DNA of 64,000 nucleotides, from NCBI RefSeq assembly GCF_003475325.1, contig NZ_QRQC01000007.1, forward strand, positions 34,560 to 98,559, given 5' to 3'. The notes below the pieces were generated by a model, which was not told where the DNA came from, did not search any database, and saw nothing but the letters and a program-made list of their open reading frames with translations. Positions 590 through 54,164 of this stretch are shown here, one piece after another. The translations under genes and the position numbers were made by a program. Source of the stretch: Collinsella sp. AF33-16. GTDB taxonomy: Bacteria > Actinomycetota > Coriobacteriia > Coriobacteriales > Coriobacteriaceae. The stretch's first letter is position 1, and the number at the start of each line of letters is the position of its first letter.

Positions 590-650
590 TATTGTTAGTG
601 CTATACTAACAATAACGATTACTGATTAGTGCGCCGGTTTCGGCCGGCGC
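590..650. promoter_or_regulatory. Two hairpins between the PFL halves
   Basis: The 85-bp gap between the two PFL genes holds two inverted repeats. The first is a perfect 10-bp AT-rich stem (590-599 with 605-614, 5-nt loop). The second is GCGCCGG at 631-637 pairing with CCGGCGC at 644-650. Neither is followed by a T-run, so termination is not obvious. They could stabilise or process the mRNA so that the small subunit is made in a different amount from the large one. That role is inference. A strong ribosome-binding site, GAAGGAGA, follows at 660-667. Confidence 0.6.
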
Positions 651-673
651 CTATCGATCGAAGGAGACACATT

Positions 674-925
674 ATGAAGGTTTCTGAAGTTTCCGAGACT
701 CAGGCCGATAACCTGGTCCACATGCTCGACGCTTACGCCGAGAAGGGTGGCCACCACCTGAACATCAACGTCTTCAACCGTGAGACGCTGCTCGACGCTC
801 AGGCTCACCCCGAGAAGTACCCGCAGCTGACCATTCGCGTTTCCGGCTACGCCGTGAACTTCCACACGCTCACCAAGGAGCAGCAGGACGAGGTCATTTC
901 GCGTACCTTCCACAACAAGTTCTAA
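674..925 (+). CDS. grcA: Stand-alone glycyl-radical domain of PFL (GrcA-like)
   Basis: This 83-residue protein is the missing C-terminal domain of pyruvate formate-lyase. It contains [18 protein letters not shown], then [18 protein letters not shown], whose glycine in the SGY loop is the radical-bearing residue, and the final helix [16 protein letters not shown]. coli GrcA (YfiD) is longer and acts as a spare part for an intact PFL. Here the preceding gene lacks the domain, so the two products should together form one enzyme. The start at 674 has a GAAGGAGA site 6 nt upstream. The radical would be installed by the activase at 2394-3212. Confidence 0.92.
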
Positions 926-949
926 AGGGGTTTAACTCCCGCAGGATCG

Positions 950-1076
950 CCGGGGCTGTTTGGGCTACCTCCCAAAACGTCCTCGGACATGCAAGAAGCC
1001 CTCGCTGCGCACTTCGTGCGGCGAGGGCTTCTTGCGTCCTGCGGAATATTTTGGGAGGTAGCCCAAACAGCCCCGG
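950..1076. repeat. Long nested palindrome, CGTCCTC/TGCGGA family, copy A
   Basis: Perfect 28-bp outer arms (950-977 and 1049-1076) enclose a perfect 15-bp inner stem (991-1005 with 1021-1035) and a small tip hairpin. Between outer and inner stems lies an asymmetric internal loop with CGTCCTC (978-984) on one side and TGCGGA (1040-1045) on the other, joined to the inner stem by a short helix, GGAC with GTCC. Two other loci (5040-5168, 10496-10625) have the same loop with unrelated arms. It follows grcA directly and could also act as a 3' mRNA end, but there is no clear T-run. Confidence 0.9.
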
Positions 1077-1357
1077 CGGGGTCCTGTGTAGTCACCCTTT
1101 AGGCGGAACTCTCCTAATGGGTTGAGCGTTCTGGATTCTTGCTTGCTACCGTTTATCGCGTATAGCTACCGTTTGCGGAATAAGTAACACTCCTTAATAA
1201 ACCGTGTAGAATCTCAGATAAGCACGGAGTTTTCCAGGGAGACGCTGTCCTTTGTTGTGTGCAAGGGGCGGCGTCTCTTTGGCGCTTGGAGGCCGTTCTG
1301 CAGCAGGACGGCGGACGTGCGTCACATATTCAAAAGCCAACGTCGAGATGGGTTGTG
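1077..1357. other. Leader region of the DegV gene
   Basis: No gene is seen here. The 10-mer GCTACCGTTT occurs twice, at 1145-1154 and 1165-1174, exactly 20 bp apart (two helical turns), which would suit a dimeric DNA-binding protein. A TAGAAT hexamer at about 1207 could be a -10 box, but I find no matching -35. Promoter and operator are therefore only suggestions. Confidence 0.3.
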
Positions 1358-1363
1358 ATGATA

Positions 1364-2218
1364 ATGGGCAAGTACGTAATCGTGGTTGAGTCTGGTTCGG
1401 ATGTGACGCCGGAGCTCTGCGAGCGCTATGGCATCGTGCGCGTGCCCATGCATGTCACGATTGGTGACGAGACCGTCGAAGACGGATCGATCGACCCGCT
1501 TGAGATTTACTCGCGCTGCAACGAGTTTGGCGTGATGCCCAAGACCAGCGGTTGCTCGCCGGCGGATTTTGCGCATGTGTACGACCGCATTCACGCCGAG
1601 CAGCCCGACGCGACCATTTTGCATCTTGCGTATTCCGAGGTTACGACCTGCTCGCATCAGTCGTCGAAGATTGCGGCAAAGGGCCGCGATTACGTCTTCT
1701 CCATGGATACGCGCTTTGTGTCGGTGGGCCAGTCGCTTGTCGCCGTTGAGACCGCCAAGTATATCGAAGCCCATCCGGATGCCACCGTCGACGAGATTTT
1801 CGCCTTTACCAATTCGGTGATGGACCGCGTGCTGCTGGGCTTTGTTCCTACGGACCTTGCCTTCCTTAAGGCGGGTGGTCGCTTGTCCAACGTCGCGTTT
1901 CTTGGCGCCCATCTGCTCAAGATTAAGCCCTGCATTGAGGTAACGGGTGGCAAATTCGTGGCGACCAAGAAGCTCCGCGGCTCTATGCTCAAATGCGCCC
2001 GTGCCTTTATTGACCACATGGTTGCCAAGGGCGATATTGATTACTCGCACATTGGCTTGGCGTATTCGGTGGGCCTTTCCCAGGAGCTGCGCGACGACAT
2101 GGAAGTCTATGCGCACGACCTGGGCTTTGAGGACGTTACCTGGACGCAGGTTGGCGGCGTCATCTCGAGCCATTGCGGCCCGACCGCCTTCGGCGCGGTG
2201 CTCACGCTTAAGGCGTAA
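1364..2218 (+). CDS. DegV family fatty-acid-binding protein
   Basis: The 284-residue product has the DegV (EDD) fold: VIVVESGSDVTPELCERYGI at the N-terminus, then VTIGDETVEDG, and a SEVTTCSHQSS segment where the family holds the fatty-acid carboxylate. DegV proteins such as FakB bind an acyl chain and present it to a fatty-acid kinase. No kinase gene (fakA) is nearby. Starts at 1358 (ATG) and 1355 (GTG) are also possible; I prefer 1364 because MGKYVIVVES matches the usual N-terminus. It sits between grcA and pflA, inside the PFL cluster, which may be chance or may reflect co-regulation. Confidence 0.85.
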   Translation: MGKYVIVVESGSDVTPELCERYGIVRVPMHVTIGDETVEDGSIDPLEIYSRCNEFGVMPKTSGCSPADFAHVYDRIHAEQPDATILHLAYSEVTTCSHQSSKIAAKGRDYVFSMDTRFVSVGQSLVAVETAKYIEAHPDATVDEIFAFTNSVMDRVLLGFVPTDLAFLKAGGRLSNVAFLGAHLLKIKPCIEVTGGKFVATKKLRGSMLKCARAFIDHMVAKGDIDYSHIGLAYSVGLSQELRDDMEVYAHDLGFEDVTWTQVGGVISSHCGPTAFGAVLTLKA

Positions 2219-2393
2219 AGGCCGCAGGCGAGCGTTCTCCAGCCTGACATCTCGATGTAGCCCCCCAGCCATGGTGATGGGGGATAGATTAAAACGTGCC
2301 GTTCTAGTCCGAGACGTTTAAACGCAAACGCATGGGCTAGAATGGCTCTGGCATTTTAATTGGTTGCATCCAAGGAGAGGCAAGGTAGCGCGA

Positions 2394-3212
2394 ATGGCAG
2401 AAATGACGCTTGAGGGTGTGGACGCTCGTCCCGAGGACTCTGCGTATGCCCTGGGTCGCGTGCATTCGATCGAGACGATGGGAACGGTCGACGGACCCGG
2501 CATCCGCTTTGTGGTGTTTGTTCAGGGCTGTCCCATGCGCTGCGCGTATTGCCACAATCCCGATACCTGGTCTGTTAACGGCGGCACGATGGTGACTGTC
2601 GAGCATCTCATGGACGAGTTCCAGAGCAACCATGAGTTCTACCGTAGTGGCGGCATTACCGTTTCGGGTGGCGAACCGCTCCTGCAGCCCGAGTTTTTGG
2701 CCGACCTGTTCCGTGCAATGCACAACAATCCCGATGGCCGTGTGCATACCTGCCTAGATAGCTGTGGCTATGCATTTGATCCCAAGCATCCGGAGAAGTT
2801 CGATGCTGTTCTCAACGAGACCGATATGGTGCTGCTCGACATCAAGCATGCCGATCCGGTTGAGCATAAAAAGCTGACCGGTTGCGATCCTGCGCGCATC
2901 CTGGCGTTTGGCGATGAGCTTGCCCATCGCAAGATTAAGGTTGTTATTCGCCATGTGGTGGTGCCGGGTATCACCGACACGGCGGAGGAATGCGAGAAGC
3001 TCGGTCGCCTGATCGCTCCATGGCACAACGTGGTGGGCCTGGAAATGCTGCCGTATCACACGATGGGTGTCGTCAAGTACGAGCAGCTGGGTATTCCCTA
3101 TAAGCTCGAGGGCGTGCCCCAGATGGATACCGCGCGCATGCCCGAGCTGCGCAACGCCGTCATGACGGGCATGAAAAAGCGCCGCGCCGAACTCAAAAAC
3201 GCCATCGGCTAG
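2394..3212 (+). CDS. pflA: Pyruvate formate-lyase activating enzyme
   Basis: Radical SAM glycyl-radical activase of 272 residues. The cluster motif CPMRCAYCHN (CxxxCxxC) binds the 4Fe-4S centre that cleaves SAM, and TVSGGEPLLQ is the GGE motif that holds the SAM amino group. The N-terminal IETMGTVDGPGIRFVVFVQG is typical of PflA rather than of other activases. Its partner is the glycine in the stand-alone domain at 674-925. The ATG at 2394 is preceded by AGGAGAGG at 2373-2380, somewhat far but the best match. DegV lies between it and the PFL genes. Confidence 0.95.
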   Translation: MAEMTLEGVDARPEDSAYALGRVHSIETMGTVDGPGIRFVVFVQGCPMRCAYCHNPDTWSVNGGTMVTVEHLMDEFQSNHEFYRSGGITVSGGEPLLQPEFLADLFRAMHNNPDGRVHTCLDSCGYAFDPKHPEKFDAVLNETDMVLLDIKHADPVEHKKLTGCDPARILAFGDELAHRKIKVVIRHVVVPGITDTAEECEKLGRLIAPWHNVVGLEMLPYHTMGVVKYEQLGIPYKLEGVPQMDTARMPELRNAVMTGMKKRRAELKNAIG

Positions 3213-3235
3213 CGATCTATTTTCGCCCCCAAGGG

Positions 3236-3264
3236 CACTCATTGGGGACAGACTTAAATGAGTG
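3236..3264. repeat. GGGACAG-core hairpin, copy 1 (CACTCATT arms)
   Basis: CACTCATT (3236-3243) and AATGAGTG (3257-3264) flank the core GGGGACAGACTTA. The core matches the other hairpins of this family in the window, but the arms are unrelated to theirs. The element abuts the 5' edge of the beta-lactamase-like remnant. Confidence 0.7.
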
Positions 3265-3483
3265 CGCGATGGCATTGCTGACGAGCAGGTTTTGGTGCGC
3301 AACAAGGCAGGCTGGATTAGCGAGGATGGTTACTATTCGACATGCGATGCGGGCCTTATCGGCATCGATGGCTGTACCTATGCCATGAGCGTCATGACAT
3401 CGATGCCGTGGAGCGACCGCTCGAGCGAGGTTACGGCCGCGATTGCAAAGGCGCTGTTTGATACGCGAGCTGCACTGGCTTAG
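3262..3483 (+). pseudogene. C-terminal remnant of a class A beta-lactamase-like hydrolase
   Basis: About 73 codons remain open. NKAGWISEDGYYSTCDAGLI followed by YAMSVMTSMPW resembles the end of the beta-lactamase2 family, where a KTG motif leads into a DAGIV strand and a VMT strand. The catalytic SxxK and SDN regions are absent. An in-frame TGA lies at 3259-3261, and the fragment is cut where a palindromic GGGACAG hairpin begins. I see no ribosome-binding site. It is most likely a decayed remnant; a genuine small gene is less likely. Confidence 0.5.
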
Positions 3484-3561
3484 CGTGTTCGTTTGGCGAG
3501 GTCAAACAAAATGCTGGTACCATACCGTGGTTGAGAATTTCGTATAGGTTTGGGGAATGGT

Positions 3562-4302
3562 ATGGCTACCATCGCGATTATCGGTGCGCTCGAAAAAGAG
3601 ATCATGCAGATTAAGGAAGAGCTGAGCGACGTTTGCGAGGCGCGGGAGGCAGGCTTGACCGTTGTGAGCGGTGAGCTCGACGGCCTGACAGTTGTCGCCA
3701 CAACGGCGGGCATGGGCACGGTGAACGCCGCCGCTGCAACACAGCACCTCATTAGCAAGTATGCTCCGCGGGCTGTTGTGTTTTCGGGCATTGCGGGTGG
3801 TTTGAACCCCAAGCTCCATATCGACGACGTGGTCATTGGCAAACGCCTGCGCTATCTGGATACCGATACCGCGCTTATTGCCGAGTCCGCACCGGGGCTC
3901 GAGGAGTTTGACTCGACGCCTGCACTGGTCGATATTGCCGCCGATGCGCTTGCTGAGCGTGGGTTTGTTGACGCTTCGACAAATGCAGTCGCTTCGAATG
4001 AGGGCACCAAGCAGTTCCTGGTCGGCACGATTGCCACGGGTAACCGCTTTGTGACGGGCGCCGCCATGCGCAACGACGCTATCGAGGCGACGCATGCCGA
4101 TTGCGTCGGCATGGAGGGCGCGGCAATTGCCCATGTCGCAACCAAAAATGGTGTCGATTGCCTGGTGTTGCGCGCTATCAGTGATAATTGTGACGAGGCG
4201 TACGATGCAATTTGCGAGCGCGAGTTCGATCTGTTCGAGTACGCACGTGTCGCAAGTGACATCACGCTCGATATCGTCCGCCGCATTGCCGCTGCGCAAT
4301 AG
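3562..4302 (+). CDS. mtnN: 5'-methylthioadenosine/S-adenosylhomocysteine nucleosidase
   Basis: Cytosolic nucleosidase of 246 residues that removes adenine from methylthioadenosine and S-adenosylhomocysteine, relieving product inhibition of SAM enzymes. IAIIGALEKEI carries the first catalytic glutamate, VFSGIAGGL is the nucleoside-phosphorylase fold loop, MEGAAIAHVA binds ribose, and RAISDN carries the catalytic aspartate. GGGGA precedes the ATG. The gene fits a genome with several radical SAM enzymes that release 5'-deoxyadenosine, another known substrate of this family. Confidence 0.93.
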   Translation: MATIAIIGALEKEIMQIKEELSDVCEAREAGLTVVSGELDGLTVVATTAGMGTVNAAAATQHLISKYAPRAVVFSGIAGGLNPKLHIDDVVIGKRLRYLDTDTALIAESAPGLEEFDSTPALVDIAADALAERGFVDASTNAVASNEGTKQFLVGTIATGNRFVTGAAMRNDAIEATHADCVGMEGAAIAHVATKNGVDCLVLRAISDNCDEAYDAICEREFDLFEYARVASDITLDIVRRIAAAQ

Positions 4303-4340
4303 CGCGTCTATTTGTAAGAACCTACGACCAAGGAGTGTCC

Positions 4341-4931
4341 ATGGCCGATTCCATTAACTACCAGCTTGCCAAGTTCGTCGCCAGCTACGGCAAGGTTTCG
4401 CAGATTCCCGAGTCCACCTGCCCCGAGGTGAGCTTTGTCGGCCGCTCCAACGTGGGCAAGTCGTCGATTATGAACAAGCTCTTTGGCCGCAAGAACCTGG
4501 TCAAGGTTTCCAGCACGCCGGGCAAGACGAGCAACATCAACTTCTTTGAGGCCGACGACGTGCATTTCGTGGACCTGCCGGGTTACGGTTTCGCCCGTCG
4601 CTCCAAGGCCGAGCGCGACCGTTGGGCCGAGCTCATCGGCGACTTCTTCGACTCCGAGCGCAGCTTTAACTTGGTCGTCTCGCTGGTGGACATTCGTCAC
4701 GACCCCAGCAAGCTCGACCACGACATGATTGACTACCTACAGGGCAACGAGTTCAACTTTATCGTCTGCCTCACCAAAGCCGACAAGCTCAGCCGCACCC
4801 AGCAGGCCCGCCAGGCAGCAGCCATCAAAAAGCAGCTCAACGTCCCGGCCGAGAATGTAATCATCACGAGCTCCCAGACCGGCACCGGCATCGACGAACT
4901 CAAAAAGCGCATCGCCGAGGCCTGCCTCTAG
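4341..4931 (+). CDS. engB: Ribosome biogenesis GTPase YsxC/EngB
   Basis: GTP-binding protein of 196 residues required for large-subunit assembly in the family. All G motifs are visible: GRSNVGKSS (G1), a threonine in STPGKT (G2), DLPGYGFA (G3), TKADK (G4) and SSQTGTGI (G5). The start at 4341 has AAGGAG at 4330-4335. The gene follows mtnN by 38 bp on the same strand and may be co-transcribed with it. Confidence 0.95.
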   Translation: MADSINYQLAKFVASYGKVSQIPESTCPEVSFVGRSNVGKSSIMNKLFGRKNLVKVSSTPGKTSNINFFEADDVHFVDLPGYGFARRSKAERDRWAELIGDFFDSERSFNLVVSLVDIRHDPSKLDHDMIDYLQGNEFNFIVCLTKADKLSRTQQARQAAAIKKQLNVPAENVIITSSQTGTGIDELKKRIAEACL

Positions 4932-5039
4932 TAAGGGCTCCAGCCTAGCAAGAGCCCCTACCAATAAAAGGCCATAATTTCAGCCCGGCGCCCCTTCAAA
5001 GCGTGGGTCCCTGTAGACATCGCTAGTCACGTTACCATA

Positions 5040-5168
5040 GGGCCACCCAGGGGCATCCCCTTAAAAACATTCCGCAGCACGAGGCCCGCTTATCCGTAGC
5101 TCCGAAGGAGCAGGATAAGCGGGCCTCAAGTGCGAGGACGTTTTTAAGGGGATACCCTTGGGCGGCCC
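5040..5168. repeat. Long nested palindrome, CGTCCTC/TGCGGA family, copy B
   Basis: Outer arms 5040-5068 and 5140-5168 pair over about 29 bp with a few mismatches. The inner stem is a perfect 15 bp (5081-5095 with 5113-5127) capped by GCTCCGAAGGAGC (5099-5111). Read on the minus strand, the internal loop shows CGTCCTC (5140-5134) opposite TGCGGA (5076-5071), with a locus-specific helix GCAC/GTGC between loop and inner stem. A further 14-bp repeat, CTGTAGACATCGCT (5011-5024) with its complement at 5182-5195, wraps the whole and runs into the last codons of thrB. It lies between the convergent ends of engB and thrB. Confidence 0.88.
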
Positions 5169-5189
5169 GAAGGGATTAACCAGCGATGT

Positions 5190-6071
5190 CTACAGGTACT
5201 CGATTTGAGCGCCCTCGGTGTCGCACGTCAGAATATGCGTCTCACACTTGGGGAACTGCTCACGCAGCTTGACCTGCAGGAACTTGGCTACGATGGTGTC
5301 GTCAGTCACGGCCATGAGGGTCGAGCCGGAGCCACTGATCCAGATGGTCTTGGCGCCGCCGTTAAGGCAGGTGTCGCGCACAGCGTTGTAGTCGGGAATC
5401 AGGCGACGGCGATACGGCTCTTGGATGCGGTCGTCATTGGCGGCGGCAATCAGGTCCAGATCGCCGGTCTCGAGACCGCGCGTCATGCCGGCGATGCGGC
5501 CCATCTGCCACACGGCGGTGGAGAGCGGAATCTCCTGCGGCACGACCTTGCGCGCCTCGCTCGTATGTACCTCGTAGGGCGGAATCACGGTAATAAAACG
5601 CAAGCGATCGCTCACCTCGTAGCGCAGGCATTGGGGGAGCGAATCGGTCGGTGTAAAGGAGCAGACGGCGCCGCCAAGGATGGCGGGGGCGACGTTGTCG
5701 GGATGTCCCTCGACCTCGGTGGCGATGCGGACGAGCTCGGCGCGGTCGACGGTGTGGCCCGTCAGCGCGGCGGCTGCCATGATGCCCGCGACGACGCAGG
5801 TGGAGCTGGAACCCAGGCCGCGGGCGACGGGCACGTCGGTCTGGATGTCGATAGCGACGGGGAAGGCCGGCTCGCCCCAGGCGGCCAGAGCATCGACAAA
5901 GCTCACATAGACCAGGTTATTCTCGTTTTGGAACTCCTCGGGGCAGCCCGTGATGGTGAGCTTGTCGGCGCGCTCGAAGGTAAAGTGCGAGTAAAGGCTG
6001 ACGGCCATGCCGAGGGTGTCGTAGCCGATGCCCAAGTTGGCGCTTGTTGCTGGGACGGTGATCTTGATCAT
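5190..6071 (-). CDS. thrB: Homoserine kinase
   Basis: GHMP-family kinase of 293 residues that makes O-phosphohomoserine, the substrate of threonine synthase. The ATP-binding loop is PVARGLGSSSTCVVAG, the N-terminal strand is VPATSANLGIGYDTLG, and the C-terminal GHMP motif is WISGSGSTLMAV. CAGGAGAT precedes the ATG on the minus strand. It lies downstream of thrC on the same strand; a 200-bp gap with a terminator-like hairpin and a palindrome separates them. Confidence 0.95.
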   Translation of the reverse strand: MIKITVPATSANLGIGYDTLGMAVSLYSHFTFERADKLTITGCPEEFQNENNLVYVSFVDALAAWGEPAFPVAIDIQTDVPVARGLGSSSTCVVAGIMAAAALTGHTVDRAELVRIATEVEGHPDNVAPAILGGAVCSFTPTDSLPQCLRYEVSDRLRFITVIPPYEVHTSEARKVVPQEIPLSTAVWQMGRIAGMTRGLETGDLDLIAAANDDRIQEPYRRRLIPDYNAVRDTCLNGGAKTIWISGSGSTLMAVTDDTIVAKFLQVKLREQFPKCETHILTCDTEGAQIEYL

Positions 6072-6086
6072 GGGAATCTCCTGGGC

Positions 6087-6192
6087 GGTCTGCCTGTTTA
6101 GTTCGCTGCTCGGGCAGTCCTGGCTCGCTCGGAAAGCACATTAAGTGCTTTCCGGCTCGTGCGGAACTCGCGACGAACTAAACAGGCAGACC
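6087..6192. repeat. Nested palindrome between thrC and thrB
   Basis: Perfect 19-bp arms (6087-6105 and 6174-6192) surround an inner hairpin GGAAAGCAC (6131-6139) with GTGCTTTCC (6145-6153). The internal loop contains GTGCGGAACT, which resembles but does not equal the TGCGGA element of the three long palindromes, and the CGTCCTC side is not conserved. I treat it as a separate type. It ends 16 bp before the thrB start codon. Confidence 0.8.
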
Positions 6193-6228
6193 CGCATGTC
6201 AGCTCGTCATCATCCCGGTGGATTTCTG

Positions 6229-6260
6229 ATAAAAGAAGGTGCGCCGGCTTTCGCCGGCGC
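6229..6260 (-). terminator. Terminator after thrC
   Basis: GCGCCGGC (6241-6248) pairs with GCCGGCGC (6253-6260). On the minus strand a pyrimidine and T-rich run follows (6229-6239). It lies just beyond the thrC stop, so thrB may be partly uncoupled from thrC. Confidence 0.7.
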
Positions 6261-6272
6261 TTAATAAGGGGT

Positions 6273-7790
6273 TTAGTTGGTGCTCATTCGTTTTGCTGCA
6301 GACTCGACGTAACTGTCCATCTCATCGACGTCGCAGACGTCTTCGAAGCGGACGGGCTTGGACTCGAGCTCGGCGAGCTGTGCCGGGGCGACCGTGTTGG
6401 TGGCCTGCTCGAGCACACGCATAGCCTCAAAGTCGTCCTCGGGCACGTCGAGGCCCAGGGCATCGCAGCAGGCGCGCGGGAACTTGTAGGGGCTGGCGGT
6501 CGAAAGCAGCACGCGGGCCTTGGCGCCCTCGGCGGGGGTGACTTTTTCAAAGACGTGATAGCCGCAGGCGGTGTGCGGGTCGATCACGTAGCCGTTTGCG
6601 TCCCAGCAGCTCTTGATGGCAGCGCGGACCTCGTCCTCGCTGGCCCAGCCGCAGCCAAAGACGCTCTGAATCTTTGCCAGCAGGTTGGCGGGAACTTCGT
6701 AGCGACCAGTCTGTGCCAGCTGCTCCATAAGGTCGGCAACAAGCTCGCAGTCGCCGTCGGACAGGAAGTAGAGCATGCGCTCCAGGTTGGAGCTGATGAG
6801 GATGTCCATCGACGGCGAGATGGTCGTGAAGAACGGACGGTTGCGGTCGTAGACGCCGGTGGTCAGGAAGTCGGCAAGCACGTTGTTCTTGTCGCTCGCG
6901 ACGATGAGCTTGGCGACGGGCAGACCCATGCGCTTGGCATAGTAGCCGGCCAGGATATCGCCAAAGTTACCGGTCGGTACACAGAACTCTACGGCGTCGC
7001 CAGCCTCGATAGCGTCGGCGCGCAACAGCTGCGCATAGGCGGCAAAGTAGTAGACGACCTGCGGTACCAGACGGCCGACATTGATGGAGTTGGCGCTCGA
7101 AAGCACCGTGCCAGCGCCCTCCAGGCGCTCGGCAAGCTCCTTATCGGCAAAGATGCGCTTGACGGCGCTCTGGGCGTCGTCAAAGTTGCCGCGGATACCG
7201 CAGACGGCGACGTTGTCGCCCTCCTGCGTGGACATCTGCAGGTTCTGCACGCGGCTGACCTTGCCCTCGGGATAAAAGACGGTGATGCCCGTACCTGGAG
7301 CGTCGGCAAAACCGGCGAGTGCGGCCTTGCCGGTGTCGCCCGACGTGGCGGTGACGATCATGATGCGCTCGGCGCCGCCGTCCTTGGCGGAGGTGCGGGC
7401 CATGAGGCGGGGGAGCATCTGCAGGGCGACGTCCTTAAAGGCGCTCGTGGGGCCACCAAAGAGCTCCATCACATAGGTTTGAGGGACGTCGGTGCCCGGC
7501 GCTGTATCGAGTTTGACGAGCGGCGTAACCTCTTCGCTCGCGAACGTGCCGCGGTATGCCTCATTCACACAGGCCGAAATTTCTTCGGCTGTGTAATCAT
7601 TCAGTAACATTCCCAACACATCTTGAGCGATTTCAAAGTACGATTTATCTGCAAGCGAGCTGATATCGACCTGCTGGGTGCCGAGCTCGTCCGAGACAAA
7701 CAAACCCCCGTCGGGAGCGATGCCGGTACGGATTGCCACCTTACTTGAGCACGATAAAGTGCGTCCTCGTGTACTATGATAAGTTCCCAT
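6273..7790 (-). CDS. thrC: Threonine synthase
   Basis: PLP enzyme of 505 residues that converts O-phosphohomoserine to threonine. FGGPTSAFKDVALQML carries the PLP-binding lysine, and TATSGDTGKAAL is the phosphate/substrate loop; NAEVCVPTGNFG-like residues appear as FCVPTGNFGDILAG. The chosen ATG gives the usual N-terminus MGTYHSTRG and has GAGGAG 11 nt upstream; a longer reading from 7835 adds 15 residues without a better site. It diverges from lysC across a 103-bp gap that must hold both promoters. Confidence 0.95.
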   Translation of the reverse strand: MGTYHSTRGRTLSCSSKVAIRTGIAPDGGLFVSDELGTQQVDISSLADKSYFEIAQDVLGMLLNDYTAEEISACVNEAYRGTFASEEVTPLVKLDTAPGTDVPQTYVMELFGGPTSAFKDVALQMLPRLMARTSAKDGGAERIMIVTATSGDTGKAALAGFADAPGTGITVFYPEGKVSRVQNLQMSTQEGDNVAVCGIRGNFDDAQSAVKRIFADKELAERLEGAGTVLSSANSINVGRLVPQVVYYFAAYAQLLRADAIEAGDAVEFCVPTGNFGDILAGYYAKRMGLPVAKLIVASDKNNVLADFLTTGVYDRNRPFFTTISPSMDILISSNLERMLYFLSDGDCELVADLMEQLAQTGRYEVPANLLAKIQSVFGCGWASEDEVRAAIKSCWDANGYVIDPHTACGYHVFEKVTPAEGAKARVLLSTASPYKFPRACCDALGLDVPEDDFEAMRVLEQATNTVAPAQLAELESKPVRFEDVCDVDEMDSYVESAAKRMSTN

Positions 7791-7893
7791 ATAACACTGC
7801 TCCTCGGATGCCTTGGTCCCAATCGGTGAACCCATGGTATCAGAGCGCGCAAAACAGGTTTGCAGAGGCTTTTAGAAAGGTAACCTCCACGCC

Positions 7894-9282
7894 ATGATAA
7901 AAATTGCCAAGTTTGGCGGCTCGTCGGTCGCCGACGCCGAACACTTTAAGAAGATCAAGGCCATCGTCGATGCCGACCCGGCCCGCCGTTTTGTGGTGGT
8001 TTCTGCCTGCGGTCGCCGCTTTAAGGGCGACACCAAGGTGACCGACCTGCTCTACCTGGTTAACGCGCACGTTAAGTACCACGTGTCGTGCGAGGAGCTG
8101 CTCGAGGACATTGGGCAGCGCTATTTTGATATCGCTGACGAGCTGGAGCTCACCTATCCCATCCGCGAGGAGTTCGCGGCCTTTGCCGAGCGTGCCCGCT
8201 CGGGTGGCTACTCCACCGAGGAGCTCGTGAGCCGTGGCGAGTGCTTCACCGCTCGCCTGATGGCCGAGTACCTGGGCCTGCCGTTCCTGGACGCCGCGAC
8301 GGTCGTTGCGTTCCATCACGACGGTACGCTCAGCATGAACCGCACCTCCGAGCTGGTGCAGGAGTACGGTCAGCAGGGTGGCTTTGTCATGCCCGGTTTC
8401 TACGGCGCGACGCGTGAGGGCCAGATCAAGCTGCTCGACCGTGGTGGCGGCGATATTTCCGGCTCGATTCTGGCTAAGTGCCTGGGCGCCGACCTTTACG
8501 AGAACTGGACCGACGTCTCGGGCTTCTACTCTGCCGACCCGCGCATCGTACCCGAGGCTCAGCCCATTGCGCGCGTTACCTACGAGGAGCTGCGCGAGCT
8601 TTCGTACATGGGTGCAAGCGTCCTGCACGAGGAGGCCGTGTTCCCCGTGCGCGAGGCCGGTATTCCGCTAGTCATCAAGAACACCAACGCGCCGCAGGAC
8701 CCCGGCACCATCATTAGCGAGACGGCCGACGAGGGCGAGGCGGAGCCCATCATTACCGGCGTGACCGGCAAGCGCGGCTTTGTCGCCATCAACGTGGCCC
8801 GCGACCGCACCAAGCCCCGTGTCGGCTTTATGCGCCGCGCGCTTTCGGTCTTCGAGCGCTATGACGTCTCCGTCGAGCACATGCCCACCGGTGTCGACCG
8901 CTTTGGCGCCGTGGTGCAGGAGCAGGACGTGCACGATTCGCTGTACTCGCTCGTGGGCGACATTCAGCAGGAGGTCGAGCCGCTCGAGATCGAGGTTGTC
9001 GAGGGCCTGGCGCTTATCGCTACCGTTGGCCGCAACCTGCGCGGTCGCGCCGGCATCTCTGGCCACCTGTTTGGCATGCTTGGCCAGGCGGGCGTGAGCG
9101 TGCGTATGATTTCGCAGAGCTGCGACGAGATCAACATCATCATCGGCGTGGAGGAGAAGGACTTCGATCTGGCGATCCAGACCATTTACCGTGCCTTCTC
9201 CGATGAAAACGGCATTGTGAAGGTCTCCGACCTGGAGGCTCCCGCGCCGGCCGATCCCATCCAGGCCGCGCTCAAAAAGTAG
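7894..9282 (+). CDS. lysC: Aspartate kinase
   Basis: Monofunctional aspartokinase of 462 residues, the first step from aspartate to lysine, methionine and threonine. KIAKFGGSSVAD is the kinase N-terminal motif, LLDRGGGDISGS the catalytic core, and WTDVSGFYSADPRIV the nucleotide loop. Two ACT domains occupy roughly residues 300-450, ending in RMISQSCDEINIIIGV, the usual site of end-product feedback. AGAAAGG precedes the ATG. I saw no lysine riboswitch or attenuator in the short leader. Confidence 0.95.
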   Translation: MIKIAKFGGSSVADAEHFKKIKAIVDADPARRFVVVSACGRRFKGDTKVTDLLYLVNAHVKYHVSCEELLEDIGQRYFDIADELELTYPIREEFAAFAERARSGGYSTEELVSRGECFTARLMAEYLGLPFLDAATVVAFHHDGTLSMNRTSELVQEYGQQGGFVMPGFYGATREGQIKLLDRGGGDISGSILAKCLGADLYENWTDVSGFYSADPRIVPEAQPIARVTYEELRELSYMGASVLHEEAVFPVREAGIPLVIKNTNAPQDPGTIISETADEGEAEPIITGVTGKRGFVAINVARDRTKPRVGFMRRALSVFERYDVSVEHMPTGVDRFGAVVQEQDVHDSLYSLVGDIQQEVEPLEIEVVEGLALIATVGRNLRGRAGISGHLFGMLGQAGVSVRMISQSCDEINIIIGVEEKDFDLAIQTIYRAFSDENGIVKVSDLEAPAPADPIQAALKK

Positions 9283-9455
9283 CGACTGCTCGGTGGATTT
9301 TTGGGTCATGTCTCAAAAATCTACGGCGGGGCGTTTCGTTTCGGTTTCGTTTCGACGGGGCGGATTTCGTGCCCGCCCCGTTCTTGTATACACTGGCAAC
9401 AATAATCGGCCTGCTTGGCGTGCGGGCAAAAGCCATAACCTTTAAAGGGGGAAGC

Positions 9456-10481
9456 ATGAAACAGTACACGGTTGCTATTTTGGGCGCGACGGGAGCTGTG
9501 GGCACCCAGATGCTCGAGTGCCTCAACGAGCAGGAGTTTCCGGTCGGTAAGCTCAAGCTGCTGGCGAGCGCGCGCTCTGCGGGCAAGACCGTTGAGTTCC
9601 GCGGCGAGCAGATCGTGATCGAGGAAGCTTGCCCCGAGGCCTTTGAGGGCTGCGACATCGTGCTCGGCGCTGCCGGCGACGATATCGCCAAGGAGCTGCT
9701 GCCCGAGGCCGTCAAGCGCGGCGCCGTCGTGGTCGACAACAGTCACGCCTTCCGCATGGATCCCGAAGTGCCGCTGGTTGTGCCTGAGATCAATGCCGAC
9801 GACATCAAGTGGCATCACGGCCTTATCGCCAACCCCAACTGCGCGACCATCATCGGCCTGGTTCCCACCTGGCCGCTGCATCAGCTCGCCGGCGTGAAGC
9901 GCATGATCGTCTCGACGTATCAGGCTGCTTCGGGTGCCGGCGCTCCCGGCATGGCCGAGCTCGAGGCTCAGCTGGCCGCCCTGGGCCGTGGCGAGGAGAT
10001 TCCCGAGCCGCGCGCATTTGCCGCCCAGCTCGCGAGCAACCTGATTCCGCAGATTGGCGGCGTCAAGGAGGAGGGCTTTACCTCCGAGGAGATGAAGCTG
10101 CAAAACGAGGGTCGCAAGATTATGCATCTGCCCGAGCTGCGCGTGAACTGCACCTGCGTGCGCGTGCCCGTGCTGCGCTCGCACTCCGAGAGCATTACGC
10201 TCGAGTTCGAGCGTGACATCACGGTTGAGGAGGCTCGTGCTGCGCTGGCTGCCGCTCCCGGCGTCAAGCTGGTTGACGACATGAGCGCCGAGGATGCGCA
10301 CGATCGCTTCCCCATGCCGATGGATACGTCCGACCAGGACCTGATCTGGGTCGGTCGTGTGCGTCGCGACATCTCGAACCCCGAGGCCGCGCGTGGCATC
10401 ACCTTCTGGTGCTGCGGCGACCAAATCCGTAAGGGCGCGGCAACCAACGCCGTCCAGATCGCTAAGCTGCTCTGCGAGTAG
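9456..10481 (+). CDS. asd: Aspartate-semialdehyde dehydrogenase
   Basis: NADPH-dependent enzyme of 341 residues that follows aspartokinase in the pathway. ILGATGAVGTQML binds NADP, NPNCATIIG carries the catalytic cysteine, and RVPVLRSHSE carries the catalytic histidine region. The ATG at 9456 is preceded by AAAGGGGGAAG; upstream codons from 9369 are open but lack a site. It is 173 bp downstream of lysC on the same strand and probably shares control with it. Confidence 0.95.
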   Translation: MKQYTVAILGATGAVGTQMLECLNEQEFPVGKLKLLASARSAGKTVEFRGEQIVIEEACPEAFEGCDIVLGAAGDDIAKELLPEAVKRGAVVVDNSHAFRMDPEVPLVVPEINADDIKWHHGLIANPNCATIIGLVPTWPLHQLAGVKRMIVSTYQAASGAGAPGMAELEAQLAALGRGEEIPEPRAFAAQLASNLIPQIGGVKEEGFTSEEMKLQNEGRKIMHLPELRVNCTCVRVPVLRSHSESITLEFERDITVEEARAALAAAPGVKLVDDMSAEDAHDRFPMPMDTSDQDLIWVGRVRRDISNPEAARGITFWCCGDQIRKGAATNAVQIAKLLCE

Positions 10482-10495
10482 CGGTGGACCTGTCC

Positions 10496-10625
10496 GGCGG
10501 GGGCCGGGCTTAGTTTTCAGAACGTCCTCGACCATGTGTGGCGCCTTGTCCTGCTCCTTCGGAGCCGCGGACAAGGCGCCACACTGGTCTGCGGAGTGTT
10601 CTGAAAACTAAGCCCGGCCCCCGCC
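10496..10625. repeat. Long nested palindrome, CGTCCTC/TGCGGA family, copy C
   Basis: Perfect 27-bp outer arms (10496-10522 and 10599-10625) and a perfect 16-bp inner stem (10536-10551 with 10569-10584) capped by GCTCC TTC GGAGC (10553-10565). The internal loop carries CGTCCTC (10523-10529) opposite TGCGGA (10590-10595), joined by a locus-specific helix GACCA/TGGTC. It follows asd. Arms are unrelated to those of copies A and B, and the tip hairpin matches copy B. Confidence 0.9.
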
Positions 10626-10777
10626 TGCGGTGACGCTGCTGCGAGTGGCCTGCGATGGGGTCGTTGTTGGTTGGGGCCGCTGGGCTGATGTGGGGGAACG
10701 TGGTTGTTGCGGGCCCTGGTCCCGGCGGCGGCCTCGGCGCTTTGCGCCTGCCGCCTTTGGGGACTGCGGAGCGCGGC

Positions 10778-17897: not shown

Positions 17898-17968
17898 TAA
17901 GTTGCGGTGATATACGGACTGTTTGGCGCTTTGGAGCTTCAAAACAGTCCCTATCTCACCGCAACTTA
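17898..17968. repeat. AGTTGCGGTGA palindrome, copy 1
   Basis: TAAGTTGCGGTGA at 17898 pairs with TCACCGCAACTTA ending at 17968; an inner stem GGACTGTTT pairs with AAACAGTCC. The outer 11-12 bp are shared with copies at 19137-19203 and 26563-26629, while the inner stem differs. Confidence 0.85.
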
Positions 17969-19136: not shown

Positions 19137-19203
19137 AGTTGCGGTGGAATAGTTTTTGGATTCAGCCATTTGCGGACTAAGCAGGAACTATTTCACCGCA
19201 ACT
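19137..19203. repeat. AGTTGCGGTGA palindrome, copy 2
   Basis: AGTTGCGGTGGAATAGTT at 19137 pairs with GGAACTATTTCACCGCAACT ending at 19203, with two mismatches. It belongs to the same family as 17898-17968 and 26563-26629. Confidence 0.85.
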
Positions 19204-19264
19204 GAATTTCAGACCAGGCACCCGCAGCAAGAAGACGAATAGCCTCGGCGAGTATGTAAACGCA

Positions 19265-19361
19265 GGGCCCTCCGACCCCGCCCGACGATTTCGATTGGCG
19301 ACCTTTGACGGAGTCAAGGGAGGAGCCAAATCGAAATACGTCGGGCGGGGTCGGAGGGCCC
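19265..19361. repeat. Long palindrome after pfkA
   Basis: GGGCCCTCCGACCCCGCC at 19265 begins an arm of about 35 bp that pairs with the segment ending in GGGCCC at 19356-19361. The tip is CTTTGAC GGA GTCAAGG. It lies 24 bp beyond the pfkA stop on the minus strand and could form the 3' end of that mRNA. Its internal bases match none of the other families here. Confidence 0.85.
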
Positions 19362-19384
19362 GATGGGGTGGATTCCAGCCGAGG

Positions 19385-20464
19385 CTATTCGTCGCCGAAG
19401 CTGATGCCCAACGCCTTGGCCTCGCGCACCAGGTCGCTCTGGGGGTCGACAAACTTGAGCTTGCCGGCGACCTCCTCGAGCGGCATGTGGCACATCTTGC
19501 CGTCACGCAGGGCAATCATGTAGCCAAACTCGCCGCGTAGGCACCCCAGTGCCGCCTCGACGCCGCACTGGGTCGCAAAGATGCGGTCCTGGGCGTCGGG
19601 TTGGCCGCCGCGCTGCGTGTGGCCGGGGATGGCGACGCGGGTCTCGCGACCAGTCTTGGCCTCGATCTCCTTGGCGATGTCGTAGACGATCGACGGACTC
19701 GTGCGCTCGGCGAGCTTTTTCTTGTACTCCTTCTTGGGCAGCGCTGCGTCCTCCTTGGAGATAGCGCCCTCGGCGACGGCCACGATGGTAAAGCGGCTGC
19801 CGGTCTCCATGCGATGCTCGATGGTCTTGATGACGTTGTCCATGTCGTAGGGGATCTCGGGAATCAAGATGACGTCCGCGCCGCCCGCGACGCCGGCATA
19901 CAGCGGAATCCAACCGACCTTGTGGCCCATGATCTCGATGACAAACACGCGGCCGTGACTCGAGGCAGTGGTGTGGATGTCGTCGATGCACTTGGTGGCG
20001 ACGTCGATGGCGCTCGTAAAGCCAAACGTCAACTCGGTGCCCCAGGTGTCGTTATCGATGGTCTTGGGCAGGGCGATAACGTTGAGGCCTTCTTCGCGCA
20101 GGCGGTTGGCGGTCTTGGTGGATCCGTTGCCGCCCAGCATAAACAGGCAGTCGAGCTGCAGTTTATGATAGGTGTGGACCATTGCGGGCACCTTCTCGAC
20201 GCCGTCGGCCTCGGGAATGTCCAGGCGCTTGAACGGCGTGCGGCTCGTGCCCAGGATGGTGCCGCCGCGGGTGAGGATGCCGCTAAAGTCTGCCGGCGTC
20301 ATCACGCGAAAACGGCTGTAGATGAGGCCCTGGTAGCCGTCCTCAAAACCATAGATCTCGATAGGCTCTTCGCTATTGGTCATGAGCGTTTTGACGATGC
20401 CGCGCATGGTGGCATTGAGCGCCTGGCAGTCGCCGCCACTGGTAAGAAGACCGATCCTGAGCAT
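19385..20464 (-). CDS. pfkA: 6-phosphofructokinase
   Basis: Glycolytic kinase of 359 residues. The catalytic PKTIDNDTWGT motif is intact, as are MGHKVGWI and IPGHTQRGG. Two signature sites differ from E. coli PfkA: the first loop reads TSGGDCQALNA and the metal/phosphoryl loop reads GGNGSTKTA, with Asn where the usual GGDGS has Asp. I recall a GGNG variant in other gut Firmicutes-like PFKs, so this is probably a clade feature and not a defect. Whether it uses ATP or pyrophosphate cannot be settled here. GGAAGGAT precedes the ATG. Confidence 0.92.
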   Translation of the reverse strand: MLRIGLLTSGGDCQALNATMRGIVKTLMTNSEEPIEIYGFEDGYQGLIYSRFRVMTPADFSGILTRGGTILGTSRTPFKRLDIPEADGVEKVPAMVHTYHKLQLDCLFMLGGNGSTKTANRLREEGLNVIALPKTIDNDTWGTELTFGFTSAIDVATKCIDDIHTTASSHGRVFVIEIMGHKVGWIPLYAGVAGGADVILIPEIPYDMDNVIKTIEHRMETGSRFTIVAVAEGAISKEDAALPKKEYKKKLAERTSPSIVYDIAKEIEAKTGRETRVAIPGHTQRGGQPDAQDRIFATQCGVEAALGCLRGEFGYMIALRDGKMCHMPLEEVAGKLKFVDPQSDLVREAKALGISFGDE

Positions 20465-26562: not shown

Positions 26563-26629
26563 AGTTGCGGTGATATAGTTCCGATTTAAGCGGTTTAACA
26601 GCACAAATAGGAACTATATCACCGCAACT
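26563..26629. repeat. AGTTGCGGTGA palindrome, copy 3
   Basis: A perfect 20-bp stem: AGTTGCGGTGATATAGTTCC (26563-26582) pairs with its exact complement at 26610-26629 around a 27-nt loop. It lies between the map leader and the end of the radical SAM gene. Confidence 0.92.
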
Positions 26630-39033: not shown

Positions 39034-39224
39034 GGTAGAACACCTTTCTCAATAAAATCCCTAGCGGTTGAGTAGAGTTATACCCTATCGCGCTCAAATG
39101 GGTCAACACGAAATAACTCAGAAACATACTTACCTTATGGGTTATTCAACCTACCAAAAAGGGACAGGTTCACAGGCACCTTCGTGGTGGTTTTGACCGA
39201 TGCAACGGCATGCCTTACTGTTTT
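39034..39224. other. Leader of the importer operon
   Basis: No gene. A half copy of the GGGACAG element lies at 39150-39172. The promoter of the importer must be here, since the gene upstream (dxs) ends convergently ordered on the same strand with its own terminator; I could not fix the boxes. Confidence 0.3.
39150..39172. repeat. GGGACAG-core hairpin, copy 6 (half)
   Basis: CCTACCAAAAAGGGACAGG is followed by TTCA, and the expected TTTTGGTAGG arm is missing. It is a broken copy of the hairpin family. Confidence 0.7.
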
Positions 39225-39441
39225 GTCTCAATCTGTAACATCTGCAGCCATTTTTGCCGAGTAACTGTTACAGATTGAGATTTTCTCTTCAGGGGGATTC
39301 GAATGTCTCAATCTGTAACAGTTAGACGGCCAAAAGGTCTCTATCTGTTACAGATTGAGACAAAGGTCAGGGACTAAGACGGTTTGTCTAGATCTGTAAC
39401 AGGTAGACGGGAATTCGGGCCCTAGATGTTACAGATCGAGA
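39225..39441. repeat. Array of six alternating inverted 15-17 bp repeats, 40-bp period
   Basis: The motif GTCTCAATCTGTAACAG or its complement occurs at 39225-39240 (+), 39265-39280 (-), 39305-39321 (+), 39345-39361 (-), 39386-39402 (+) and 39427-39441 (-). Start-to-start spacing is 40, 40, 40, 41 and 41 bp, and the 23-24 bp between neighbours are all different. The third pair carries small changes (TCTAGATC and GATCGAGA). Each neighbouring plus/minus pair can fold as a hairpin. It lies between the importer promoter region and the end of dxs. Confidence 0.93.
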
Positions 39442-39459
39442 TAATCGCGCCGCGAAAAT

Positions 39460-44545: not shown

Positions 44546-44655
44546 GGCACGGGTTTCCCAGGCACCCGACCTTGCCCCTCAAACCGTCGCTTGCGTACCG
44601 AAGTACGCGGCGCTCCTCTTTCGGGGCAATCTCGGGCACCTGGAAAACCCGTGCC
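44546..44655. repeat. Long nested palindrome between amtB and the P-II gene
   Basis: GGCACGGGTTTCCCAGG (44546-44562) pairs with CCTGGAAAACCCGTGCC (44639-44655), then ACCCGA with TCGGG, TTGCCCC with GGGGCAA, and at the tip GCGTAC (44593-44598) with GTACGC (44603-44608). The mid-loop bases match neither the CGTCCTC family nor the other palindromes. It starts 2 bp after the amtB stop. Confidence 0.88.
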
Positions 44656-53813: not shown

Positions 53814-53865
53814 ACTGGACATCTGTTGCGTAAACGGTCCAACTATCACCCCCTGCGAACTTGGA

Positions 53866-53996
53866 TTTCGGAAGTATGCGGCAAAATTTGAATAGGCCGA
53901 GCACACTGGATATGCCCAAGCTTTGTACCTGCGGTTTTATTGGTGAAAAACCGGGGTGTGCTCGAGGGCTCCGGAATTTGCCGCATACTTCCGAAA
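53866..53996. repeat. Long palindrome with GGAAGTATGCGGCAAAATT arms
   Basis: TTTCGGAAGTATGCGGCAAA at 53866 pairs with the complement ending at 53996, about 23 bp. GAGCACAC (53899-53906) pairs with GTGTGCTC (53956-53963). A related half copy lies at 55162-55195. Confidence 0.88.
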
Positions 53997-54164
53997 ACAA
54001 CGTCTCGGTGGCACCAAAAATTGCCTCCAGAACCCTGAGATAATGAACATATGTAGCCGTTTGCCGCGAAATACCGCCCGTTTATAGAACCCAACCCCTG
54101 CGCGTGCCATCCTTACGGTTGAATAAATACACATCTATGGAATTACGTAAGAGAGGACCGTTCC
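53997..54164 (+). promoter_or_regulatory. Leader and possible promoter of the hydroxyacyl-CoA dehydrogenase gene
   Basis: TTACGG (54113-54118) and TATGGA (54136-54141) have a 17-bp spacer and could be the promoter. AAGAGAGG follows as the ribosome-binding site. Nothing else is seen in this gap. Confidence 0.35.

Follow-up and report, generated by a model that had tools for sequence, protein, structure and literature searches.

The window (the whole stretch of DNA analysed, 64,000 nucleotides from Collinsella sp. AF33-16) contains three long palindromes, one after each of the genes grcA, thrB and asd (Table 1). The outer arms of copy 1 (948–977 and 1049–1078) are perfectly paired over 30 bp and those of copy 3 (10496–10523 and 10598–10625) over 28 bp. 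Copy 2 carries three mismatches (T.G, A.C and G.T) among the 27 outer pairs nearest the loop, and its arms resemble a hybrid of two perfect alleles, the 5′ arm being that of L200 and the 3′ arm that of L208. Pairing continues outside these arms. The outermost tier of copy 1 (CTAAAGGG) is complementary, by eye, to CCCTTTAG at 1095–1102, and this gene-end repeat is also present at other grcA loci. At copy 2 the stretch 5182–5196 holds the thrB stop codon (5190–5192) together with coding bases, and the hairpin thus extends over the stop.

Table 1. Features of the three palindromes, their upstream genes and neighbouring hairpins in the window
Feature	Position	Strand	Details
Copy 1, long-core form, after grcA	948–1078	+	Covariance model R1 match 952–1075, 66.8 bits
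Copy 1 loop parts	CGTCCTC 978–984; TGCGGA 1040–1045; inner core 985–1039	+	
Copy 1 outermost tier, 5′ side	922–929	+	CTAAAGGG, includes grcA stop TAA (923–925)
grcA (GrcA3), sense gene upstream of copy 1	629–925	+	NF038360, above its cut-off
Copy 2, long-core form, after thrB	5040–5168	−	Covariance model R1 match 5041–5166, 69.9 bits
Copy 2 loop parts	CGTCCTC 5134–5140; TGCGGA 5071–5076	−	
Copy 2 outermost tier, 3′ side	5010–5024	−	Pairs with 5182–5196
thrB (homoserine kinase), sense gene upstream of copy 2	5190–6071	−	TIGR00191, above its cut-off
Copy 3, long-core form, after asd	10496–10625	+	Covariance model R1 match 10497–10625, 69.9 bits
Copy 3 loop parts	CGTCCTC 10523–10529; TGCGGA 10590–10595; inner core 10530–10589	+	
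asd (aspartate-semialdehyde dehydrogenase), sense gene upstream of copy 3	9369–10481	+	TIGR01296 and NF011456, above cut-off
Candidate divergent relative, membership unconfirmed	6087–6192	+	19-bp perfect arms, GTCCT..TGCGGA loop, different inner hairpin
Different multi-tier hairpin, after phosphofructokinase gene	19234–19393	−	Loop GGCGACC/GGGAGGAGCC

Folded as RNA on the motif strand, copy 1 (940–1087) gives −126.4 kcal/mol (z −18.8), copy 2 (5005–5200, minus strand) −144.0 kcal/mol (z −17.3) and copy 3 (10480–10640) −131.7 kcal/mol (z −15.3). For each of the three, 0 of 200 shuffles folded as well as the native sequence, and they are three of the four strongest folds in the window (160-nt scan, step 40). 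By coordinates, folds and shuffles, the three palindromes with a common internal loop that had been proposed from the letters are real and far beyond chance. The copy behind thrB lies where it had been placed, but its motif is on the minus strand.

The window also has other hairpins. The one at 6087–6192 was suspected to be a fourth copy, but covariance model R1 gives no match there up to E 10; over 6106–6173 it resembles segments of L032 and L041 at the 85% level, and a loop resembling its own is seen in L324 (2883–2971). In L033 and L042 (genomes G014 and G018) the phosphofructokinase site is occupied by the CGTCCTC element instead. A further hairpin type, set beside these two, lies at 44546–44655.

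Loop, arms and distribution of the family

Each copy studied is a rod-like hairpin whose arms vary by locus and by allele and are almost fully Watson-Crick matched. What stays constant is an asymmetric internal loop, CGTCCTC G..C TGCGGA (in RNA form C-G-UCC-UC-[G..C]-UGC-GGA-RU-G), which caps either a short hairpin or a longer, exchangeable inner stem, the long-core form of copies 1–3. Across 34 aligned copies, CGTCCTCG and TGCGG do not vary, 39 of 47 pairs have both-sided changes, and covariation is 0.801, against 0.230 when shuffled and at most 0.217 when slid. In alignment A1, both sides have changed at 25 of the 26 pairs of the outer stem, the motif C-G pair left aside. One compensated change is seen within the motif helix (GTTCTC/TGCGAA in L346). 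The motif strand is the better folder of the two in only 42 of 56 copies, the margin being mostly a few kcal, and the ends are not conserved past a loose CCGG..CCTGCGGTGAC boundary (by eye).

The original prediction held that the arms differ completely between loci. This is so for the three window copies but fails family-wide: the outer arm has position preferences, some loci are 81–85% alike over 26 nt, and L039 and L109 carry, at the PEP carboxylase locus, a core that matches the inner core of copy 1 exactly, so cores can be common to different loci. Four alleles at thrB and nested remnants of older copies are seen by eye. The view that these are not recent copies of one mobile sequence also stands in part; inheritance of the sites is stable, but strains and loci have exchanged alleles and inner cores.

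Covariance model matches number 11–19 in each of 20 C. aerofaciens-like genomes and 1–14 in 18 of the 22 genomes from elsewhere in the genus (38 of 42 with the element). Class-wide, 30 of 149 genomes carry it, 6 from other genera of the family and 6 from outside the family, where it occurs in a further family and also in a different order. Because the bare loop pattern also matches coding DNA, matches without inner and outer pairing were dropped; 82 matches were found in 80 loci examined, of at least 116 stretches, and 23 of them have both pairings, all in Collinsella records.

This is a large hairpin family without a match in Rfam 15. At gathering score, Rfam gave 0 matches in the window and only tRNAs at six further loci. 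Under relaxed limits at four loci the best score was 58 bits against a threshold of 197, and 15 of 21 matches were to miRNA-precursor models, with Collinsella-1 absent. Among the literature matches listed on Collinsella/Coriobacteri palindromes, hairpins and terminators, mostly open-access papers, none was a prior description of these elements. The original prediction had been set against two outcomes, an absence of further CGTCCTC/TGCGGA copies in related genomes and a match to a described Rfam family; many copies were found, and no family was matched at gathering score.

Gene ends and U-tract terminators

Where do the elements lie relative to genes? In 41 of the 47 distinct gene tails upstream of an element, a sense ORF of 80 aa or more has its stop 27–65 nt before the motif (element and tail counts include many orthologues), whereas the same rule applied from the opposite side is satisfied in 14, and the element is therefore directional relative to the gene. 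A codon-scored gene caller puts the stop-to-motif distance at 37–62 nt in 27 of 39 tails. For distant copies, a fitting ORF ends within 70 nt of the outer arm in 39 of 51, compared with 17 of 51 from the other side. The upstream genes, a dozen or more ordinary ones, include groEL, grcA, thrB, asd, ftsZ and rpsJ, and copies in different genera sit behind the same genes, as at the groEL and aldolase tails. No fitting sense gene precedes the motif in 6 of the 47 tails, four of which come from a single locus, upstream of a divergent tRNA-Leu; two further matches (L300 and L301) are without any ORF. The central claim made for these palindromes, a recognised structure that sits at gene 3′ ends and has a constant internal loop, is supported.

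Judged as intrinsic terminators, the elements have the expected location, shortly after the stop on the transcribed strand, and usually lack the U tract: no U-tract hairpin is found from −30 to +120 at 34 of 39 element sites. One lies near the other five, and in three of these (L008, L014 and L244, of which L008 and L244 are the same gene) it is the inner core itself. A T tract closes some of the inner cores, that of L014 among them. At grcA and thrB taken together, a U-tract terminator is present at 0 of 46 loci with the element versus 5 of 12 without it, a contrast confounded by phylogeny because most element-free loci are in distant species. Such terminators are rare at window gene ends generally (5 of 44, crude scan).

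Origin of the arms and competing readings

Arm covariation had been read as pointing to a recognised structure in RNA or extruded DNA, an argument that is not supported on covariation alone. Among 89 distinct outer stems (2046 pairs) there are 22 G.T, 23 A.C and 38 other mismatches, and the inner arms have three G.T and three A.C. A G.U bias marking the RNA strand was expected but absent; an inner-stem count of 53 GT to 9 AC was due to the constant tip and disappeared without it. Hand counts among the closest haplotypes, made from raw arms with unpaired bases included, gave 19 Watson-Crick substitutions that are paired, 3 paired indels, and 11 comparisons differing by one concerted change alone. 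The same counts gave about 59 single-arm substitutions (6 of them from the hybrid copy 2 of the window) and 5 comparisons with unpaired indels. Single-arm changes are common, so the arms are not corrected at once, which leaves room for stepwise compensation. No multi-base concerted event was singled out.

The longest inverted match between a gene end and its own downstream flank has a mean of 6.76 nt and reaches 17 nt, against a flank-swapped mean of 5.12 (sd 0.11, maximum 5.42, 300 rounds), in a test region that can run into the far end of a long outer stem. By these inverted gene ends past the hairpin, the elements have the reverse-complement copy of neighbouring unique sequence expected of a template-switch hairpin. 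Replication template switching is described as making and keeping perfect RNA stems (PMC8794818). The lack of wobble bias, the paired substitutions and indels and the inverted gene ends together argue for copying of arm from arm in DNA, at least in part.

The reading we favour, with a little less than even confidence, is that the palindromes are a directional mRNA 3′-end element of Collinsella and its relatives, and that replication template switching builds part of its arms. One arm, at times with the gene end, would be copied into the other by fold-back, which would make the arms and keep them matched in DNA, at least partly, as the mismatch statistics, paired changes and inverted gene ends suggest, while selection would hold the loop as the arms turn over. 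A putative cellular factor would recognise the loop in the transcript, and the hairpin would define or protect the mRNA 3′ end in place of an ordinary U-tract terminator. Loop recognition and this 3′-end role are the least certain step. On sequence grounds, the element is probably a 3′-end signal, a candidate terminator or end-protector read through its loop. A bolder and unlikely version would make it a lineage-specific signal in a class of its own, in which Collinsella-type bacteria have a dedicated factor that recognises the CGUCCUC/UGCGGA loop on nascent RNA and terminates or trims the transcript, the stem being self-built; as fold-back synthesis at the loop would copy the gene's 3′ end downstream, any gene gaining the loop could then grow a long perfect hairpin.

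Could selection on the folded transcript suffice? A structure kept stepwise at the RNA level, such as a factor-binding 3′ UTR element, with no copying in DNA, would account for the invariant loop, the orientation, the strong covariation, the many single-arm intermediates among close haplotypes and the compensated motif-helix change in L346. We consider it somewhat unlikely, since G.T does not exceed A.C in outer stems or inner arms, a hairpin of more than 100 kcal/mol hardly requires perfection at every pair, and the paired indels, the comparisons with a single concerted change and the inverted gene ends speak against it. A DNA element, either an extruded cruciform or a supercoil or replication mark at gene ends, fits the signs of DNA-level arm copying, the very long palindromes and the close copies in opposite orientation (L290, L298, L308, L313 and L316). 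It is decidedly improbable given the directional loop, and copies in opposite orientation can be neighbours although a single symmetric cruciform would be enough there.

Spread as a REP-like or MITE-like palindrome, inserted after stop codons by a transposase such as a Y1/HUH enzyme, is improbable. The core common to different loci, the four alleles at thrB and the nested remnants of older copies agree with it, and the genomes of the genus without Y1_Tnp (6 of 42) all have at most two copies. However, covariance model R1 matches at 0 of 8 Y1_Tnp loci (L330–L337; ORFs of 265–348 aa), the long inverted repeats listed at the five of these loci that were scanned are without the motif, G015 has Y1_Tnp yet zero copies, arms and ends are unconserved, and copies sit behind the same genes in different genera. 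RAYT mobilisation is not supported by the eight loci, though low copy number tracks Y1_Tnp absence in the genus. Highly improbable is the view that these are ordinary intrinsic terminators whose stems are just unusually long and whose loop is a relic of common descent: the place is right and T tracts end some inner cores, but most sites are without a U-tract hairpin, and different genera and families, and a second order, have retained the loop despite stem turnover.

If the favoured reading of a partly template-switched 3′-end element is true, a major human gut genus and its relatives would have a 3′-end signal, at housekeeping genes, that is absent from Rfam 15 and is read by a putative recognition factor. 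Near-perfect covariation, usually regarded as the best evidence of RNA structure, may partly stem from replication template switching; copying and RNA selection are separable here because conservation lies in the loop and not in the arms. Many loci in many strains form a natural series for measuring template switching.

Comparison with known systems

Collinsella-1 is a Collinsella motif. An RNA motif of that name appears in PMC2864571, where motifs overlapping their own reverse complement by at least 30% are stated to have been discarded, a rule by which palindromes would be excluded. Both it and the gene-end element are structured RNA candidates, but Collinsella-1 gave no match in the relaxed Rfam scan of four element loci. 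Intrinsic (Rho-independent) terminators likewise form hairpins no further than about 80 nt from the stop codon, and hairpin-cluster intrinsic terminators reportedly need no U trails (PMC8355165). The Collinsella element differs from intrinsic terminators in being a long multi-tier rod with an invariant loop, usually no U tract, and arms exchanged as units.

REPs have a tetranucleotide guide. Like the REP sequences described with their transposase (PMC8266576), the Collinsella elements are dispersed extragenic palindromes, many per genome. Unlike REPs, they have no conserved stem sequence, and no copies lie at the eight Y1_Tnp loci. ERIC is a member of the RU small mobile sequences. The enterobacterial RU sequences, given as 103–168 bp (PMC2759123), are intergenic repeats of similar length, whereas conservation between the Collinsella loci is confined to the loop. 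Perfect stems, candidate concerted pair changes and reverse-complement copies of neighbouring sequence are shared with the template-switch RNA hairpins described in PMC8794818; in Collinsella, however, the hairpins make up a dispersed family that has one constant loop at its centre and takes gene ends into its arms.

Structure of the gene-end hairpin and its minimal unit

The three palindromes of the original prediction are present in the sequence as described, except that copy 2 is oriented on the minus strand, so its upstream gene is thrB rather than the preceding plus-strand gene. The outer arms are perfect over 30 bp in copy 1 and 28 bp in copy 3. Copy 2 has three mismatches; its 5' arm is identical to the one in L200 and its 3' arm to the one in L208 (loci from other genomes), which would fit a hybrid of two perfect alleles. 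Fold energies of the three copies lie 15 to 19 SD below those of shuffles, with 0 of 200 shuffles equal for each copy, and the copies are three of the top four 160-nt folds across the window. Run over the window with hits accepted to E = 10, the covariance model R1 (80 positions, 30 pairs) recovers exactly these three copies and nothing else. Near-identical counterparts of the window copies occur in C. aerofaciens records (e.g., L060), on which grounds the window probably belongs to a C. aerofaciens-like genome.

Hairpins and palindromes of the window (upstream genes of copies 1 to 3 named by family search)
Position	Strand	Gene context	Feature
948-1078	+	after grcA (GrcA3)	copy 1
5040-5168	-	after thrB (homoserine kinase)	copy 2
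10496-10625	+	after asd (aspartate-semialdehyde dehydrogenase)	copy 3
6087-6192		between thrB and ORF 6273-7835, both on the other strand	19-bp perfect arms, GTCCT..TGCGGA loop, GGAAAGCAC/GTGCTTTCC hairpin; similar loop at L324:2883-2971
17898-17968, 19137-19203, 26563-26629			palindromes with common TTGCGGTG..CACCGCAA, a separate repeat family
19234-19393		after phosphofructokinase gene	multi-tier hairpin of another type; outermost 16-bp arm holds the gene's last codons and stop
39222-39444			clustered, alternating inverted repeats of TCTCAATCTGTAACA type
44546-44655			long hairpin; RNA folds better on the minus strand (-80.5 vs -68.0 kcal/mol on the plus strand), which is therefore probably rich in G.U, unlike the CGTCCTC family
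53859-54003			hairpin with 20-bp perfect arms TTTCGGAAGTATGCGGCAAA, about 90 nt between arms

As anticipated, related genomes hold many further copies, found by pattern search and then with R1, and the element stays below the gathering score of every Rfam family. Bare-pattern matches were mixed with chance ones in coding DNA, so pairing was made a requirement; 141 elements were collected, and one chance match (L054) was removed. An alignment of 34 copies shows no variation in CGTCCTCG, in a single C close to the tip or in TGCGG, and next to none in the CATG that follows the first helix or in the last A of TGCGGA. In further species of the genus, as in other genera, the loop is unchanged but the inner stem has often shrunk to a mini-hairpin such as GCCC-TTT-GGGC. 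The loop with a short hairpin closing it is thus the minimal unit, and the 55-60 nt core seen in the window copies extends it. In distant copies aligned to R1, GTCCTC is exact in 35 of 39 rows and TGCGGA in 35 of 39, both shares being upper bounds since R1 favors the motif and the rows include two repeats; one distant row carries the compensated pair GTTCTC/TGCGAA.

Distribution, position and direction

R1 matches (E <= 1e-4) were obtained in 38 of 42 genomes of the genus, with 11-19 copies in each of the 20 genomes with a ThrB that matches the window's at 99% identity or more, and 1-14 in each of the remaining 18. No copy was found at this threshold in G015, G026, G033, and G066 among the 42. 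A sample of the class, which we take to be Coriobacteriia, gave matches in 30 of 149 genomes (18 in the genus, 6 in other genera of the family, 3 in another family of the order and 3 in another order of the class). In a phylum sample searched under stricter filters, 8 of 246 genomes, counted together inside and outside the class, were matched, each belonging to the Collinsella family.

A sense ORF of at least 80 aa ends 27-65 nt before the motif in 41 of 47 distinct upstream gene tails from the genus and other genera; the same rule applied from the opposite side holds for 14. Four of the six exceptions are tails of one locus beside a divergent tRNA-Leu, and the others are a short-ORF locus (L031/L066) and a doubtful position in L283; L300 and L301, which are without an ORF, stand outside the 47. 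With a codon-scored gene caller the spacing is 37-62 nt in 27 of 39 tails. For distant copies, a sense ORF of this length ends at most 70 nt from the outer arm in 39 of 51, against 17 of 51 on the opposite side. Among the upstream genes that family searches could name are groEL (from L130 only), ilvE, phosphofructokinase, class II aldolase (from L046), pta, ftsZ, ftsX, Hsp20, rpsJ, PEP carboxylase, RNase PH and a universal stress protein. Copies follow the groEL tail (GGGMY or GGMY) not only in the genus but also in other genera of its family and in another family; the aldolase tail NLGS.GRA has copies behind it in three genera. Because the same gene tails recur across genera, the positions of the element are conserved, although its arms are not. 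Copies in opposite orientation lie close together at L290, L298, L308, L313, and L316, with a clear gene behind some of them but not all, which suggests that direction matters despite the symmetric stem.

Turnover and matching of the arms

By eye, thrB in aerofaciens-like strains has four alleles with unrelated arms, and behind one of these alleles (L203, L205, L207) lies the right half of an older element. Likewise, a new minimal element at grcA in L181, L183, and L185 precedes an old remnant, and the core is lost in L202. The right-half remnants at these thrB and grcA loci look as if a newer copy had displaced the left half. At four loci the core is swapped while the outer arms stay. The core of copy 1 is identical to a core at the PEP carboxylase locus, this being the 1 of 61 distinct cores that is exactly common to more than one locus. 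The phosphofructokinase site carries another hairpin type in the window and the CGTCCTC element in G014 and G018.

How, then, do the arms come to match? The original prediction read the covariation as the sign of a recognized structure. The covariation, at a score of 0.801 against a mean of 0.230 after shuffling and at best 0.217 after sliding, is overwhelming, and the loop is kept, but the arms are free of G.U bias and would partly reflect concerted copying. If RNA pairing were under selection, G.U should be tolerated more readily than A.C, yet the non-Watson-Crick pairs of 89 distinct outer stems comprise 22 G.T, 23 A.C and 38 others of 2046, and the corresponding counts for inner arms, from 59 cores, are 3, 3 and 21 of 594, which points away from plain RNA selection. 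Raw 25-nt arms of closest haplotypes, tallied by hand, gave 19 paired Watson-Crick substitutions and three paired indels (L035/L199, L081/L130, L170/L178), and 11 comparisons differ by a single concerted change and nothing else. They also gave about 59 single-arm substitutions, six of them from the copy 2 hybrid, and unpaired indels in five comparisons (L034/L099, L025/L155, L025/L157, L222/L226, L224/L226). The arms change in concert, yet single-arm states persist too. This persistence, with which stepwise compensation fits, favors a structure kept by RNA-level selection without copying at the DNA level; these counts make that reading a little more likely than before, and the 3'-end element below a little less so, but in view of the mismatches it is still unlikely.

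The best explanation, held tentatively, is a 3'-end element (terminator or end-protector) which the cell would recognize via the internal loop, which would end or protect the mRNA, and whose stem would be partly self-made. The structure, position, direction, turnover and mismatch statistics of the family are observed, whereas we infer that template switching makes the arms in part; in RNA genes, such switching is on record as making and repairing perfect stems (PMC8794818). If one arm is copied from the other, the internal loop should tend to be lost, yet it persists, and is therefore probably the target of selection. Beyond the element, gene ends recur in inverted form, with their stop codons and as many as 16 coding bases (L260). 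The longest such match averages 6.76 nt in a gene's own flank against 5.12 nt with flanks swapped, and matches of at least 7 nt occur at 24 of 67 loci against a swapped mean of 5.5 and maximum of 12, figures inflated by orthologues among the 67. Since the protein constrains the coding end, copying most likely ran from gene to flank.

Terminator position and known systems

Of 58 usable regions downstream of grcA and thrB, 46 have the element and 12 do not; a hairpin with a U tract occurs in none of the 46 but in 5 of the 12, and these 12 include one remnant (L184) and one core deletion (L202). This contrast is suggestive but confounded by phylogeny. In distant species a canonical terminator occupies the element's place (grcA in L189, L193, L194, and L196; thrB in L223). 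Counting one site per gene tail, a U-tract hairpin lies near 5 of 39 element sites; in three of these it is the inner core itself, two of the three being the same gene. A crude scan finds U-tract hairpins at 5 of 44 gene ends of the window. A role of the element in 3'-end formation is hinted at.

In its dispersal the element is like REP elements, but R1 detected it at none of 8 loci of the transposase family Y1_Tnp. Six of the 42 genus genomes are without a Y1_Tnp match (G002, G006, G026, G032, G033, G066) and have 0-2 copies, a low number that may be due to phylogeny or genome size. One structured-RNA survey excluded by design motifs overlapping their own reverse complement (PMC2864571). A gut-microbiome survey lists 250 palindromic candidates, of which 230 carry predicted terminators, and its main text names Collinsella once, for an L7/L12 leader (PMC8040213). 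Compared with an intrinsic terminator, the element is usually without a U tract, but sits in the same place.
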